The notes beneath the pieces were generated by a model that had not been told where the DNA came from, did not search any database, and saw only the letters and a program-made list of their open reading frames with translations. 64,000 nucleotides of DNA, taken from positions 62,001 through 126,000 of the forward strand of contig NZ_JAAGPD010000022.1 of the NCBI RefSeq assembly GCF_017104565.1, in the 5' to 3' direction. A program made the translations under genes and the position numbers. This DNA is from Paraburkholderia sp. Tr-20389 (lineage in GTDB: Bacteria; Pseudomonadota; Gammaproteobacteria; Burkholderiales; Burkholderiaceae). This document shows positions 3,722-7,524 of this stretch, in pieces. How positions within the stretch are numbered: position 1 is the stretch's first letter; each line of letters starts with the position of its first letter.

Positions 3722-4753
3722 ATGGCATTTAACGTAACGCTCCGGCAAAGCGGCCGGCAGTTTCAGGTGGAACCCGACGAACCCGTGCTGACGGCCGCCC
3801 TTCGCCAGGGCATCGGCCTGCCGTATGGCTGCAAGAACGGCGCATGCGGCTCGTGCAAGGGCAAGGTCGTCGGCGGAGAAGTCGAGCAGCGTGCGCATTC
3901 GTCGTCGGCGCTGTCGAACGACGAAAAAACGCGCGGCATGGCGCTGCTGTGCTGCGCGACTGCGTGCACCGACCTCGAAATCGAGATCCGCGAAGTGACG
4001 GGCATCGGCGACGTGCAGATCAAGAAGCTGCCGTGCCGCGTGAATGCGATCGAGCGCATGGCCGACGACGTCGTCGTGCTCAAGCTGCAACTGCCCGCGA
4101 ACGAGCGTCTGCAATACATGGCGGGCCAGTACCTCGAGTTCATCCTGAAGGACGGCAAGCGCCGCAGCTATTCGATGGCGAATGCGCCGCACACGGAAGG
4201 CCCGATCGAACTGCACATCCGCCACATGCCGGGCGGCGCGTTCACGGACCACGTCTTCAACACGATGAAGGAGCGCGACATCCTGCGCTTCGAGGCGCCC
4301 CTCGGCACCTTCTTCCTGCGCGAAGAATCGGACAAGCCGATCGTGCTGCTCGCATCGGGCACGGGCTTCGCGCCGCTGAAGGCGATCGTCGAGCATGCCG
4401 CGTTCAAGAACATCACGCGTCCGATGACGCTCTACTGGGGTGCGCGTCGCAAGAAGGATCTGTACATGATGGAGCTCGCCGAGCAATGGGCGCGCGAGAT
4501 CCCGAACTTCAAGTTCGTGCCCGTGCTGTCCGAGCCTGACGCGGACGACGCATGGACGGGCCGCACGGGCTTCGTTCATCGGGCCGTCATCGAAGATCTG
4601 CCAGACTTGTCGGCGTATCAGGTGTATGCGTGCGGCGCTCCTGTGATGGTCGAGTCGGCGCAGCGCGATTTCACGCAGCATCATCGCCTGCCGGAAGATG
4701 AGTTCTATGCGGATTCGTTCACGAGCGCGGCCGATCTCGCGAATCCCGTCTGA
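3722..4753 (+). CDS. Ferredoxin-fused NAD(P)H oxidoreductase (CDP-6-deoxy-delta-3,4-glucoseen reductase-like)
   Basis: 343-aa electron-transfer flavoprotein. Residues 1-90 are a plant-type [2Fe-2S] ferredoxin with Cys ligands in YGCKNGACGSCKG and CCATAC. Then comes an FAD-binding barrel with RRSYSMAN (about 140) and an NAD-binding domain with LLASGTGFAPLK (about 210) and a C-terminal YACGAP motif. This layout is shared by AscD, phenol/toluene oxygenase reductases and methane-monooxygenase reductases. No oxygenase or sugar-dehydratase partner lies nearby, so the acceptor is unknown; AscD is a common automatic name rather than a supported function here. Confidence 0.85.
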   Translation: MAFNVTLRQSGRQFQVEPDEPVLTAALRQGIGLPYGCKNGACGSCKGKVVGGEVEQRAHSSSALSNDEKTRGMALLCCATACTDLEIEIREVTGIGDVQIKKLPCRVNAIERMADDVVVLKLQLPANERLQYMAGQYLEFILKDGKRRSYSMANAPHTEGPIELHIRHMPGGAFTDHVFNTMKERDILRFEAPLGTFFLREESDKPIVLLASGTGFAPLKAIVEHAAFKNITRPMTLYWGARRKKDLYMMELAEQWAREIPNFKFVPVLSEPDADDAWTGRTGFVHRAVIEDLPDLSAYQVYACGAPVMVESAQRDFTQHHRLPEDEFYADSFTSAADLANPV

Positions 4754-4837
4754 TCGTTGCGCAGTCATCCGCATCGACTGGAGAATGTGAAACCGACCGG
4801 CGAGCATGAGAAAGCGTGAAGACATGCAAATTGCAGG

Positions 4838-4867
4838 TTTACACGGGCGCCGGCATTGTCGTATTCT
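4838..4867 (+). promoter_or_regulatory. Candidate sigma-70 promoter upstream of the leader peptide
   Basis: TTTACA (4838-4843), 18-bp spacer, TATTCT (4862-4867). Transcription would start near 4873-4875, immediately at the leader ATG, so the leader peptide would be leaderless or nearly so. Confidence 0.45.
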
Positions 4868-4874
4868 TTCGCGC

Positions 4875-4925
4875 ATGAACCGCATCCTGTCCGAACTTCG
4901 ACGTCGCCGCTCGCCGCTCCCCTAG
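4875..4925 (+). CDS. Candidate Arg-rich leader peptide (16 aa)
   Basis: ATG-to-TAG frame encoding MNRILSELRRRRSPLP. Four consecutive Arg codons (CGA CGT CGC CGC, 4899-4910) include CGA, which is rare in this GC-rich genome. No Shine-Dalgarno sequence is visible, but the promoter position predicts a leaderless mRNA. It lies upstream of a terminator-like hairpin and an arginine-pathway aminotransferase. Inference: it senses charged tRNA-Arg by attenuation. It could also be chance. Confidence 0.42.
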   Translation: MNRILSELRRRRSPLP

Positions 4926-5012
4926 GGGCGCCGCTGGCTTCGTCACGGATTCGCGCGAACAACGCGCACGCAGTTCGAATCATGAAAGCCACGGCATGCC
5001 GTGGCTTTTTGT
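4916..5012 (+). promoter_or_regulatory. Candidate transcription attenuator (alternative stems) before argD-like gene
   Basis: Stem 1:2 is built on the palindrome CCCCTAGGGG (4919-4928) over the leader stop codon. Stem 2:3 pairs GCCGCTGGCTT (4930-4940) with AAGCCACGGC (4986-4995) with one bulged C. Stem 3:4 is the perfect palindrome at 4985-5008, followed by TTTTTGTATTT, a terminator. Region 3 cannot be in both. A ribosome stalled on the Arg codons would favour 2:3 (read-through); one at the stop codon would cover region 2 and favour 3:4 (termination). The hairpin could instead simply end the transcript of the upstream reductase. Confidence 0.45.
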
Positions 5013-5096
5013 ATTTCTGGCGTTCTCTTTCTTTCCGTTGCTGGGCCATGTTGTCCGAGGCGGTTTTTTATCCCTGTTTGCCTGGAGCCTGTAGCC

Positions 5097-6281
5097 ATGA
5101 ACTTCAATGAGTATCCGATCGATTCGCTGATGTACATCACGAACCGGCCCGAAATCGTTTTCACGCACGGCAAGGGCTCGTGGCTCTACGACAACACCGG
5201 CAAGCGATATCTGGATTTCATTCAGGGCTGGGCCGTGAACAGCCTCGGTCATTGCAACGACGGCGTGATCGAAGCGATGGCGCAGCAGGCGCGCACGCTG
5301 ATCAACCCGTCGCCGGCGTTCTATAACGAGCCGATGGCGAAACTCGCCGGCCTGCTCACGCAGCATAGCTGCTTCGACAAGGTGTTCTTCACGAACAGCG
5401 GCGCCGAAGCGAACGAAGGCGCGATCAAGCTCGCGCGCAAGTACGGCAAGAAGTTCAAGAACGGTGCGTACGAGATCATCACGTTCGATCACGGCTTCCA
5501 TGGCCGCACGCTGGCGACGATGTCGGCAAGCGGCAAGCCGGGCTGGGATACGATCTATGCACCGCAAGTGCCGGGCTTCCCGAAAGCTGAACTGAACGAC
5601 ATCGCGTCCGTCGAGAAGCTGATCACCGACAAGACCATTGCCGTGATGCTCGAGCCGATCCAGGGCGAAGGCGGCGTGATTCCCGCCACGCGCGAATTCA
5701 TGCAGCAGCTGCGCGAACTGACGACGAAGCACAACCTGCTGCTGATCGTCGACGAAGTGCAAAGCGGCTGCGGCCGTGCGGGGACGCTGTTCGCGTACGA
5801 GTTGTCGGGCATCGAGCCGGACGTGATGACGCTGGCGAAGGGTATCGGCAGCGGCGTGCCGCTTGGCGCGCTGTTGTGCAAGAAGCATGTCGAGGTGTTC
5901 GAGGCGGGCGACCAGGGCGGCACGTACAACGGCAATCCGCTGATGACGGCAGCCGGCTATTCGGTGATCTCGCAACTGACGGCACCGGGGTTTCTCGAAG
6001 GCGTGCGGGCGCGTGGCGACTATCTGCGCACGAAGCTGCTCGAGCTGTCGGCGGAGCGCGGCTTCGAGGGCGAGCGTGGCGAAGGTCTGCTGCGTGCGCT
6101 GCTGCTCGGCAAGGACATCGGCAACCAGATCGTCGAGAAGGCTCGGCTGATGCAACCGGACGGCCTGCTGCTTAACGCTGCGCGTCCGAACCTGCTGCGC
6201 TTCATGCCTGCGTTGAACGTGACGACGGAAGAGATCGACCAGATGATGTCGATGCTGCGTTCGATTCTGGACACGCTGTGA
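5097..6281 (+). CDS. argD: Acetylornithine aminotransferase family protein (class III, PLP)
   Basis: Pyridoxal-phosphate class III transaminase, 394 aa; the closest activity is N-acetylornithine/succinyl-DAP transamination in arginine or lysine synthesis. Visible family motifs: NSGAEANEGAIKLARKYG (about 101-118), FHGRTLATMSASG, EPIQGEGGV (about 186), DEVQSGCGRAGT with the cofactor-binding Asp (about 217), and the Schiff-base Lys in TLAKGIGSGVPLGAL (about 245). Start ATG 5097 was chosen because the sequence before it (from 5001) shows no family similarity. It overlaps the next gene by four bases (GTGA). Some relatives use other omega-amino donors, so the argD name is probable rather than certain. 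Confidence 0.85.
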   Translation: MNFNEYPIDSLMYITNRPEIVFTHGKGSWLYDNTGKRYLDFIQGWAVNSLGHCNDGVIEAMAQQARTLINPSPAFYNEPMAKLAGLLTQHSCFDKVFFTNSGAEANEGAIKLARKYGKKFKNGAYEIITFDHGFHGRTLATMSASGKPGWDTIYAPQVPGFPKAELNDIASVEKLITDKTIAVMLEPIQGEGGVIPATREFMQQLRELTTKHNLLLIVDEVQSGCGRAGTLFAYELSGIEPDVMTLAKGIGSGVPLGALLCKKHVEVFEAGDQGGTYNGNPLMTAAGYSVISQLTAPGFLEGVRARGDYLRTKLLELSAERGFEGERGEGLLRALLLGKDIGNQIVEKARLMQPDGLLLNAARPNLLRFMPALNVTTEEIDQMMSMLRSILDTL

Positions 6282-6739: not shown

Positions 6740-6780
6740 AGGTTTGGTTTGGTTTGGTTTTGTTTTGTTGCTGTCGCTAT

Positions 6781-7430
6781 TGCTGGCATCCGCGATTTGC
6801 CTTCGTAGTTCAGGCGTTGCCCCTGTGCGGGGCGGCACTTACTTTCTTTGCCGCCGCAAAGAAAGTAAGCAAAGAAAGCGGGCTCACACCGCCAGTGCTA
6901 GTGCTTGCCTGCGGGCCCCCAACGGGTCCCGCACTCCAAGCGGCAATCTTCTATTTCAGGCGCGTTGCCAGCTTGCTAACTCACGCATCACCCACGTCAA
7001 ATTCCCGCGTCACGGTTTGCGTTACCAGACGTTCACCGCCGCCCAGGTGGCAAACTATATGTAGGCTGTCTCGGCGTCAATGCACCACTCCGGACTAAAA
7101 AGCGGATCGGTGTCGTAGGATCGCCAACGCGTACGGCGCGACAAGATACACACAGTTTGCCACCTGGGCGGCGCAGACGATTCGCTGCCGCCGGCTGCAC
7201 TACGGGTGACTGGAGCGGGTAATGCGCCTGTTCAACGCGCTGGCAACGGGCGCAAAACAATGTGTTGCCGTATGGAGTGCGGGACCCGTTGGGGGCCCGC
7301 AGGCAAGAACACGGGCTGGCGGTGTGAGCCCGCTTTCTTTGCTTACTTTCTTTGCGGCGGCAAAGAAAGTAAGTGCCGCCCCGCACAGGGGCAACGCATG
7401 AACTACGAAGGCAAATCGCGGATGCCAGCA
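6781..7430. repeat. 650-bp palindromic dispersed repeat, copy 1
   Basis: Two long arms in inverted orientation. The left arm (from 6781, TGCTGGCATCCGCGATTTGC, through GGGGCGGCACTTACTTTCTT near 6830) reappears as its reverse complement ending at 7430. Inner features are also mirrored: the GGGCCCCCAACGGGTCCC block and the pair GGTGGCAAACT (7047) / AGTTTGCCACC (7154). Copy 2 lies at 44524-45166 in the opposite orientation. Several frames are open through the arms because of their composition, and they give similar hypothetical peptides (AALTFFAAAKKVSKES), but no start signal supports a gene and no transposase is encoded. A (TTTGG)n run at 6741-6768 precedes it. Confidence 0.85.
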
Positions 7431-7524
7431 ACAACAACAGCAACAGCACCCCCACCACCAACCCAAAAAGCAAAAAAGGCCACATGTTCATCACATGCAG
7501 CCTTCGCTCCCAGACGAGAGCGGC

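Follow-up and report, generated by a model that had tools for sequence, protein, structure and literature searches.

A conserved leader with consecutive arginine codons, matching the catalogued sRNA family RF02884, is a candidate transcription attenuator of an argD-type gene

Leader-peptide attenuation controls the amino acid operons trp, his, leu, ilv, phe and thr. Could a leader of the same build, with arginine as the amino acid being read, precede an acetylornithine transaminase gene in the 64,000-nucleotide stretch of Paraburkholderia DNA that we analysed (hereafter the window)? An initial annotation of these letters had proposed as much, describing a promoter, a 16-codon open reading frame (ORF) and a set of alternative RNA stems in front of an argD-like aminotransferase. 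Our comparison of related loci, together with folding models, makes it very probable that the segment is a ribosome-mediated transcription attenuator, which would make expression of the argD-type gene depend on how much charged tRNA-Arg is available.

All the elements described in that proposal are present on the forward strand. The only sigma70-like site returned by a motif scan of 4600-5200 (shuffles average 0.3) is TTTACA-18-TATTCT at 4838-4867, with its boxes at 4838-4843 and 4862-4867 and an 18 nt spacer between them; the -10 region is conserved among relatives in a 30-locus genus alignment, and in 131 of 137 family loci the ATG is preceded at 5-9 nt by a -10-like box. The leader ORF (16 codons, 4875-4925) encodes MNRILSELRRRRSPLP before its stop codon and contains four Arg codons in a row, CGA CGT CGC CGC, at 4899-4910, the proposed stall site. 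Hairpin 1:2, the anti-antiterminator (4900-4944, -23.2 kcal/mol), spans the stop codon of the ORF. Strand 2, the antiterminator partner (4930-4940), pairs with strand 3 (4986-4995), a section of the terminator 5' arm, in a bulged duplex of 10 bp (4930-4933 and 4935-4940 with 4986-4995, C4934 being bulged). The intrinsic terminator that shares these bases is a hairpin with an 11-bp stem (4984-5009, -16.9 kcal/mol), inside which lies a perfect 24-nt palindrome (4985-5008); it is followed by T-rich DNA, and hairpin and T-rich tail are kept in the 30 aligned loci between the leader ORF and the argD-type gene. This gene (5097-6281, same strand; PRK03715) starts at ATG 5097, 87 nt beyond the hairpin end at 5009, and has as its top model NF002985, acetylornithine transaminase (794.7 bits vs. 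a cut-off of 568), so that the gene 3' of the leader is one of the pathway, as in known leader-peptide attenuators; the genome encodes several homologues, among which this copy is the closest and the next one is 39% identical. The terminator scan was by itself not above chance (1 found vs. 0.7 expected) and the folding of 4869-5012 was moderately better than chance (z -1.79; 8/200 shuffles equally good); because neither is convincing alone, the strength of the case lies in conservation.

While the anatomy of the segment stood, the initial annotation had missed that its transcript is already catalogued, as RF02884 / nc5U30. The Rfam covariance model RF02884 (BcKCsr7) matches 4861-5011 on the forward strand over its full length (model positions 1-157) with 140.9 bits, above the gathering cut-off of 59 bits, and is the sole gathering-level Rfam match within the 64 kb; BcKCsr7 and the window leader are the same RNA. 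According to a 2024 review (PMC10987360), the RNA was named Bc_KC_sr7 by Ghosh et al. 2017, is identical with RIT34, nc5U30 and IG1_2967543, and lies at 2,967,641-2,967,787 on chromosome 1 of Burkholderia cenocepacia J2315, where nc5U30 is listed as an expressed sRNA of 147 nt; the same source has it expressed in biofilm data, lowered during Caenorhabditis elegans infection and raised under organic peroxide. The prefix of the name nc5U30 suggests membership of the class of 82 short 5'UTRs, arising by processing or attenuation, of Sass et al. 2017 (PMC5688073), the term being absent from the main text of that paper in the part available. No function for RF02884/nc5U30 was found in the literature examined, which consisted partly of excerpts. 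The catalogue entry is that of an sRNA gene; the descriptions examined, some of them excerpts, contain neither a peptide nor attenuation nor a link to argD, whereas these are features of the window leader as read here. We propose that the catalogued sRNA is the released termination product of the leader, of about 130-150 nt, which would give a conserved sRNA family a testable function and make other catalogued sRNAs ahead of biosynthetic genes worth examining as attenuation products.

The leader ATG at 4875 lies only 7 nt beyond the -10 box, and the message is therefore probably leaderless, a feature that the initial annotation did not mention. In the family loci measured, the ATG lies 6-9 nt past the -10-like box (5-9 nt were searched), so that a ribosome-binding site would have hardly any space, if any at all. 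Counted from the A of the ATG, the hairpin ends after 147 nt in the loci of B. anthina and B. seminalis, while three further Burkholderia loci have 140, 146 and 149 nt; the first value equals the length listed for the J2315 RNA (147 nt, PMC10987360), a match of length in relatives and not of the J2315 sequence. The expressed 147-nt RNA thus fits a transcription start at the leader ATG, and argues against the possibility, raised as a refutation of the attenuator, that transcription starts downstream of 5012. The trp attenuator RNA of Sinorhizobium meliloti (rnTrpL/peTrpL) is a documented precedent (PMC7298713, PMC10117765): its attenuation product, too, is known as an sRNA, and the RNA has been shown to start at the AUG of its leader ORF, as we infer for the window leader and its exact start site in the source species, the difference being that it reads tryptophan and not arginine.

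The proposed mechanism is as follows. Transcription would start at, or a few bases from, the A of the leader ATG, and a ribosome would trail RNA polymerase along the 16-codon leader. With charged tRNA-Arg scarce, the ribosome would stall at CGA-CGU-CGC-CGC and cover strand 1, whereupon strand 2 would be free to pair with the terminator 5' arm and the polymerase would continue into argD. With arginine plentiful, the ribosome would come to rest at the stop codon beside strand 2, so that 2:3 would be blocked or 1:2 would re-form; once 2:3 pairing is prevented, the palindromic hairpin would terminate transcription and the short RNA would be released. Of the original claim of arginine attenuation, it is the comparative side that gains direct support below, while stalling, read-through and the arginine response are what we infer from it.

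How widely does the leader occur, and does it keep company with argD? Matches to RF02884 at E <= 0.01 occurred in 128/200 family genomes and 11/25 genera (82 exceeding the cut-off), with a weak match also in 1/14 control genomes; no full-length match was obtained in two small genomes of the source genus (G015, G044). The genera referred to below are Paraburkholderia (g1), Burkholderia (g12), Caballeronia (g10), Trinickia (g25 and g14), Mycetohabitans (g8) and Ralstonia (g24), along with Pandoraea (g11) and Cupriavidus (g3), the last two assignments being guesses. Among 105 loci selected through the RNA (29 from the family-wide RF02884 search and 76 further regions), 103 are followed on the same strand by an argD-type gene; of the other two, L078 is a contig end and L129 a short match lying elsewhere. 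Linkage was also complete in a further 34 loci (34/34), but these were picked by DNA similarity covering the gene start and are not independent, because the selecting similarity includes the start of argD.

We then defined the leader as an ATG ORF of 8-45 codons containing Arg-Arg-Arg, with a terminator-like hairpin at most 170 nt further on, and found it in 129/137 family argD upstream regions vs. 2/4892 control windows (330 nt, both strands, taken from 120 pattern loci after excision of the leader, in genomes other than those of the outside-family loci). Most of the 137 family regions had been chosen through the RNA, and loci selected by the ArgD protein are therefore the fairer test: here the leader was present in 9/31 loci under the strict form (Arg-Arg-Arg) and 14/31 under a relaxed one (Arg-Arg), and outside the family in 8/28 and 13/28, vs. 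2 and 13 of the 4892 control windows. Two loci, L289 and L295, have a similar leader by eye, with imperfect hairpins; the leader was found at neither of the two g13 loci, and was missing from about half of the outside-family argD homologues examined. A genome-wide scan with the leader pattern gave at least 120 stretches; among the 120 listed, 86 have an ArgD match, in 84 cases 40-154 nt downstream of the pattern. The pattern matches listed include L210, from a Rhodocyclaceae MAG, and L220, from the alphaproteobacterium Reyranella, as well as two with an ArgD match that is not 40-154 nt downstream (L227, L228) and 34 without ArgD in the surrounding sequence examined; 13 of these 34 were viewed, of which 11 appeared chance-like by eye and the other two, L145 (Pandoraea) and L233 (Caballeronia), are leaders cut by a fragment end.

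The initial annotation had thought of an unusual attenuator in a betaproteobacterium; what emerges is a family-wide leader and not a single-species oddity, and other families and another class have counterparts of it. Eight of the loci (L295, L297, L299-L304) come from genomes of the same phylum and a different class. Upstream of argD in L300, L301 and L302, which belong to another class of the phylum, two clusters of Arg runs (e.g. MITSRTHRRAAFRRRSSDDDGLRHVRRRR) precede a terminator of the GGCCGCAC type. Only Arg-Arg is present upstream of argD in L297, L303 and L304 (e.g. within AVAMRRAHGLSVCATKK), before a terminator of the GGGTCACAG type, and the related L299 has four Arg in its leader.

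The frame of the ORF carries a coding signature. We measured from an ATG 5-9 nt past a -10-like box to the first Arg run, with no condition on frame, and obtained a distance in 131/137 family upstream regions, there being no complete ATG-to-run reading at L075, L085 (N at the start codon), L126, L128, L130 and L131. The distance is 24 nt (107 loci), 27 nt (11), 21 nt (11) or 18 nt (2), a multiple of three in 131/131; the 60 distinct ATG-to-run strings encode 45 different N-terminal peptides with no stop, vs. 59/120 shifted readings that contain one. Regulatory leader peptides are usually marked by just this combination, an N-terminus that varies and an unchanging run of a single amino acid. 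This coding signature points to the short ORF with consecutive Arg codons that is expected of a leader-peptide attenuator, and the predicted conservation of the Arg codons across relatives was borne out family-wide while the preceding codons vary, with g3 as the exception (Arg-Arg-Ser-x-Arg in place of the three-Arg run in 5/5 loci examined). A chance ORF in GC-rich DNA was rejected on the 2/4892 control windows with ORF and terminator. In the g3 loci (probably Cupriavidus; L126-L131 except L129), the terminator is kept, as is an ATG close to a promoter-like site, and the Arg run is relaxed. An altered leader stands alongside a partial or diverged argD match in L075 and L142, as expected if leader and argD depend on each other, although two cases prove little.

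A run of arginines might also halt the ribosome as a nascent peptide, or through arginine or ornithine bound by the peptide, rather than through a shortage of charged tRNA, and Arg-run peptides do control expression before arginine or polyamine genes, as ORF34 of the speF leader does in Salmonella (PMC6386406). We consider such arrest very unlikely here, since little is conserved besides the Arg run among the 45 N-terminal peptides and since in speF, according to the portion of that study available, the Arg codons sufficed whether they were rare or frequent.

The codons of the run bear on the catalogued identity of the RNA. Three or more Arg codons stand in a row in 131 leaders. The first of them is CGA (130) or CGG (1), the second CGT (108) or CGC (23), the third CGC (125), CGA (5) or CGT (1), and the fourth CGC (109), CGT (18) or a non-Arg codon (4), so that all changes are synonymous except 4/131 at the fourth codon. 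Third positions of the run are invariant within the 30-locus genus alignment and synonymously variable between genera, and on the latter ground we rejected conservation of the run for RNA reasons alone. Were the RNA a stand-alone sRNA acting in trans, as catalogued (RF02884 / Bc_KC_sr7 / RIT34), with ORF and argD incidental, its listing as an expressed sRNA (PMC10987360), the greater likeness of the RNA than of its flanks and the invariance of the third positions within the genus alignment would all be accommodated; nevertheless, the presence of argD downstream in 103/105 RNA-selected loci, a frame kept in 131/131 measured loci despite 45 different peptides, and the synonymous variation between genera make this very unlikely. 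A side function in trans is possible for the leader RNA of an attenuator.

The three codons CGU, CGC and CGA are all decoded by one tRNA, tRNA-Arg(ICG), and the Arg run would therefore sense a single tRNA pool. CGA stands first in 130/131 leaders vs. 6/116 Arg codons of six window genes, which could mean that the first CGA and the run report how fast decoding proceeds in general, or how this one tRNA is faring, and not the supply of arginine; however, the controlled gene is of an arginine biosynthetic type and leaders outside the family begin with other codons, CGT (L300, L301) or CGC (L289), and we give this alternative very little weight. That the hairpin, which sits between two same-strand genes, just ends the transcript of the upstream reductase, with the ORF there by chance, can be dismissed with near certainty, since the promoter lies between the reductase gene and the hairpin, the hairpin is conserved together with this promoter and the ORF, ORF plus terminator occurs in 2/4892 control windows, and frame and Arg codons are conserved.

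The attenuator reading calls for a terminator 5' arm that can pair in two ways, and the leader has this potential. We examined the antiterminator duplex in 33 hand-chosen representatives (16 family, 2 g3 and 15 outside the family). In 14/16 non-g3 family representatives the sequence that pairs best with the terminator 5' arm begins 16-20 nt past the Arg run (18-20 nt in 13), typically as GCCG-type and GGCU-type blocks with a bulge or small internal loop; L104 and L133 are without strand 2 at this distance. Compensatory changes in the stems had been named as a check, and complementary changes in the 2:3 arms do occur in some other families: in L283, L284, L289, L290, L295 and L301 the terminator arm has changed and strand 2 has changed complementarily (p 0.002-0.047 vs. 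shuffles). On the other hand, the duplex is singly non-significant (p > 0.1) in 21/33 representatives, because short GC-rich duplexes form easily by chance, and the combined Fisher p of 2.6e-8, which counts related loci as if they were independent, should not be read as a probability.

Folding of the alternative stems, the other proposed check, was modelled in three states at 131 loci. Pairing of the arm with upstream sequence reached genus means of 0.68-0.91 when a ribosome occupied the last Arg codon, vs. 0.05-0.52 when it stood at the stop codon and 0.16-0.76 when there was none. Shuffle controls (25/131 loci, 60 shuffles per locus) reached the observed stall pairing at most 4/60 times in 17 loci, 8/60 times in one and 11-16/60 times in seven (g11, g24, g5). 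Folding thus favours 2:3 in the stall state in most genera, and stands out against shuffles in g1, g12, g10, g25, g14 and two of three g8 loci, but in g11, g24 and g5 it is not distinguishable from them. For the window leader the model gives an arm pairing of 0.92 with a ribosome on any Arg codon and of 0.53 (12-nt footprint) or 0.15 (15 nt) with the ribosome at the stop; with no ribosome it is still 0.61, and the predicted off state is therefore unclean when the leader is untranslated.

How does this leader compare with known systems? It resembles attenuators of the trp, his and leu type, a class described in PMC2659441 and PMC7298713, in its short ORF with a run of regulatory codons, its predicted exclusive 1:2, 2:3 and 3:4 pairings and its terminator before a biosynthetic gene, and it differs in having arginine codons and argD. 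In the speF leader of Salmonella, consecutive Arg codons in the upstream ORF34 likewise make expression arginine-responsive, but through Rho and RNase G, with no intrinsic terminator, and on an inducible ornithine decarboxylase, which is not a biosynthetic gene (PMC6386406); the window leader has a conserved intrinsic-type terminator. The carAB leader of Pseudomonas belongs to an arginine-related operon, has a short 5'UTR RNA and, in P. aeruginosa, a reported leader peptide, yet the gene is a different one, attenuation is discussed there for pyrimidines, and an Arg run goes unmentioned in the portion of the paper available (PMC4997734). An attenuator of this kind for argD or arginine biosynthesis was not found in the literature searched, which covered few subscription papers and no supplementary tables. 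The argD leader would add arginine to the amino acids of a known kind of attenuator, the kind itself not being new; arginine, normally credited to repressor control, would join the amino acids read by leader peptides on a biosynthetic gene.

Our search for the ArgR repressor family PF01316, and for this family only, found it in none of 100 family genomes (25 genera) and in 9/14 control genomes; an AraC-type ArgR occurs in Pseudomonas. Attenuation by the leader would offer a plausible arginine control for a family in which PF01316 was not found. We are evenly divided on the broader proposition that arginine-codon attenuation of argD is overlooked and widespread in beta- and alphaproteobacteria without a classical ArgR, by leaderless leaders, with RF02884 as the termination product and possibly a role in trans like that of rnTrpL.

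Upstream regions of other arginine genes in the same genome (two argF-type genes, carA, argG, two argC-like genes that scored below the cut-off, and the next ArgD paralogue) yielded one unclear candidate, at an argF-type gene. About 90 nt upstream of this ornithine carbamoyltransferase-type gene (L307, G000:C15:142748-143638) lies a short ORF with a TTG start that ends in KRRRHSPASSPG and a stop codon (CGA CGG CGG), shortly past a -10-like TTTATGCT. The CGGCGG of its run is complementary to CCGCCG directly before T-rich DNA and the ATG of the gene. By its sequence, the ORF is possibly a second arginine leader.

Further downstream in the window, between an acetyltransferase gene and transporter genes, there is a pair of inverted repeats (6766-6972 / 7239-7445) of 207 nt and 90% complementarity. 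Sequence like this repeat appears, by eye, upstream of the ArgD paralogue in L264, and it may be a dispersed repeat.
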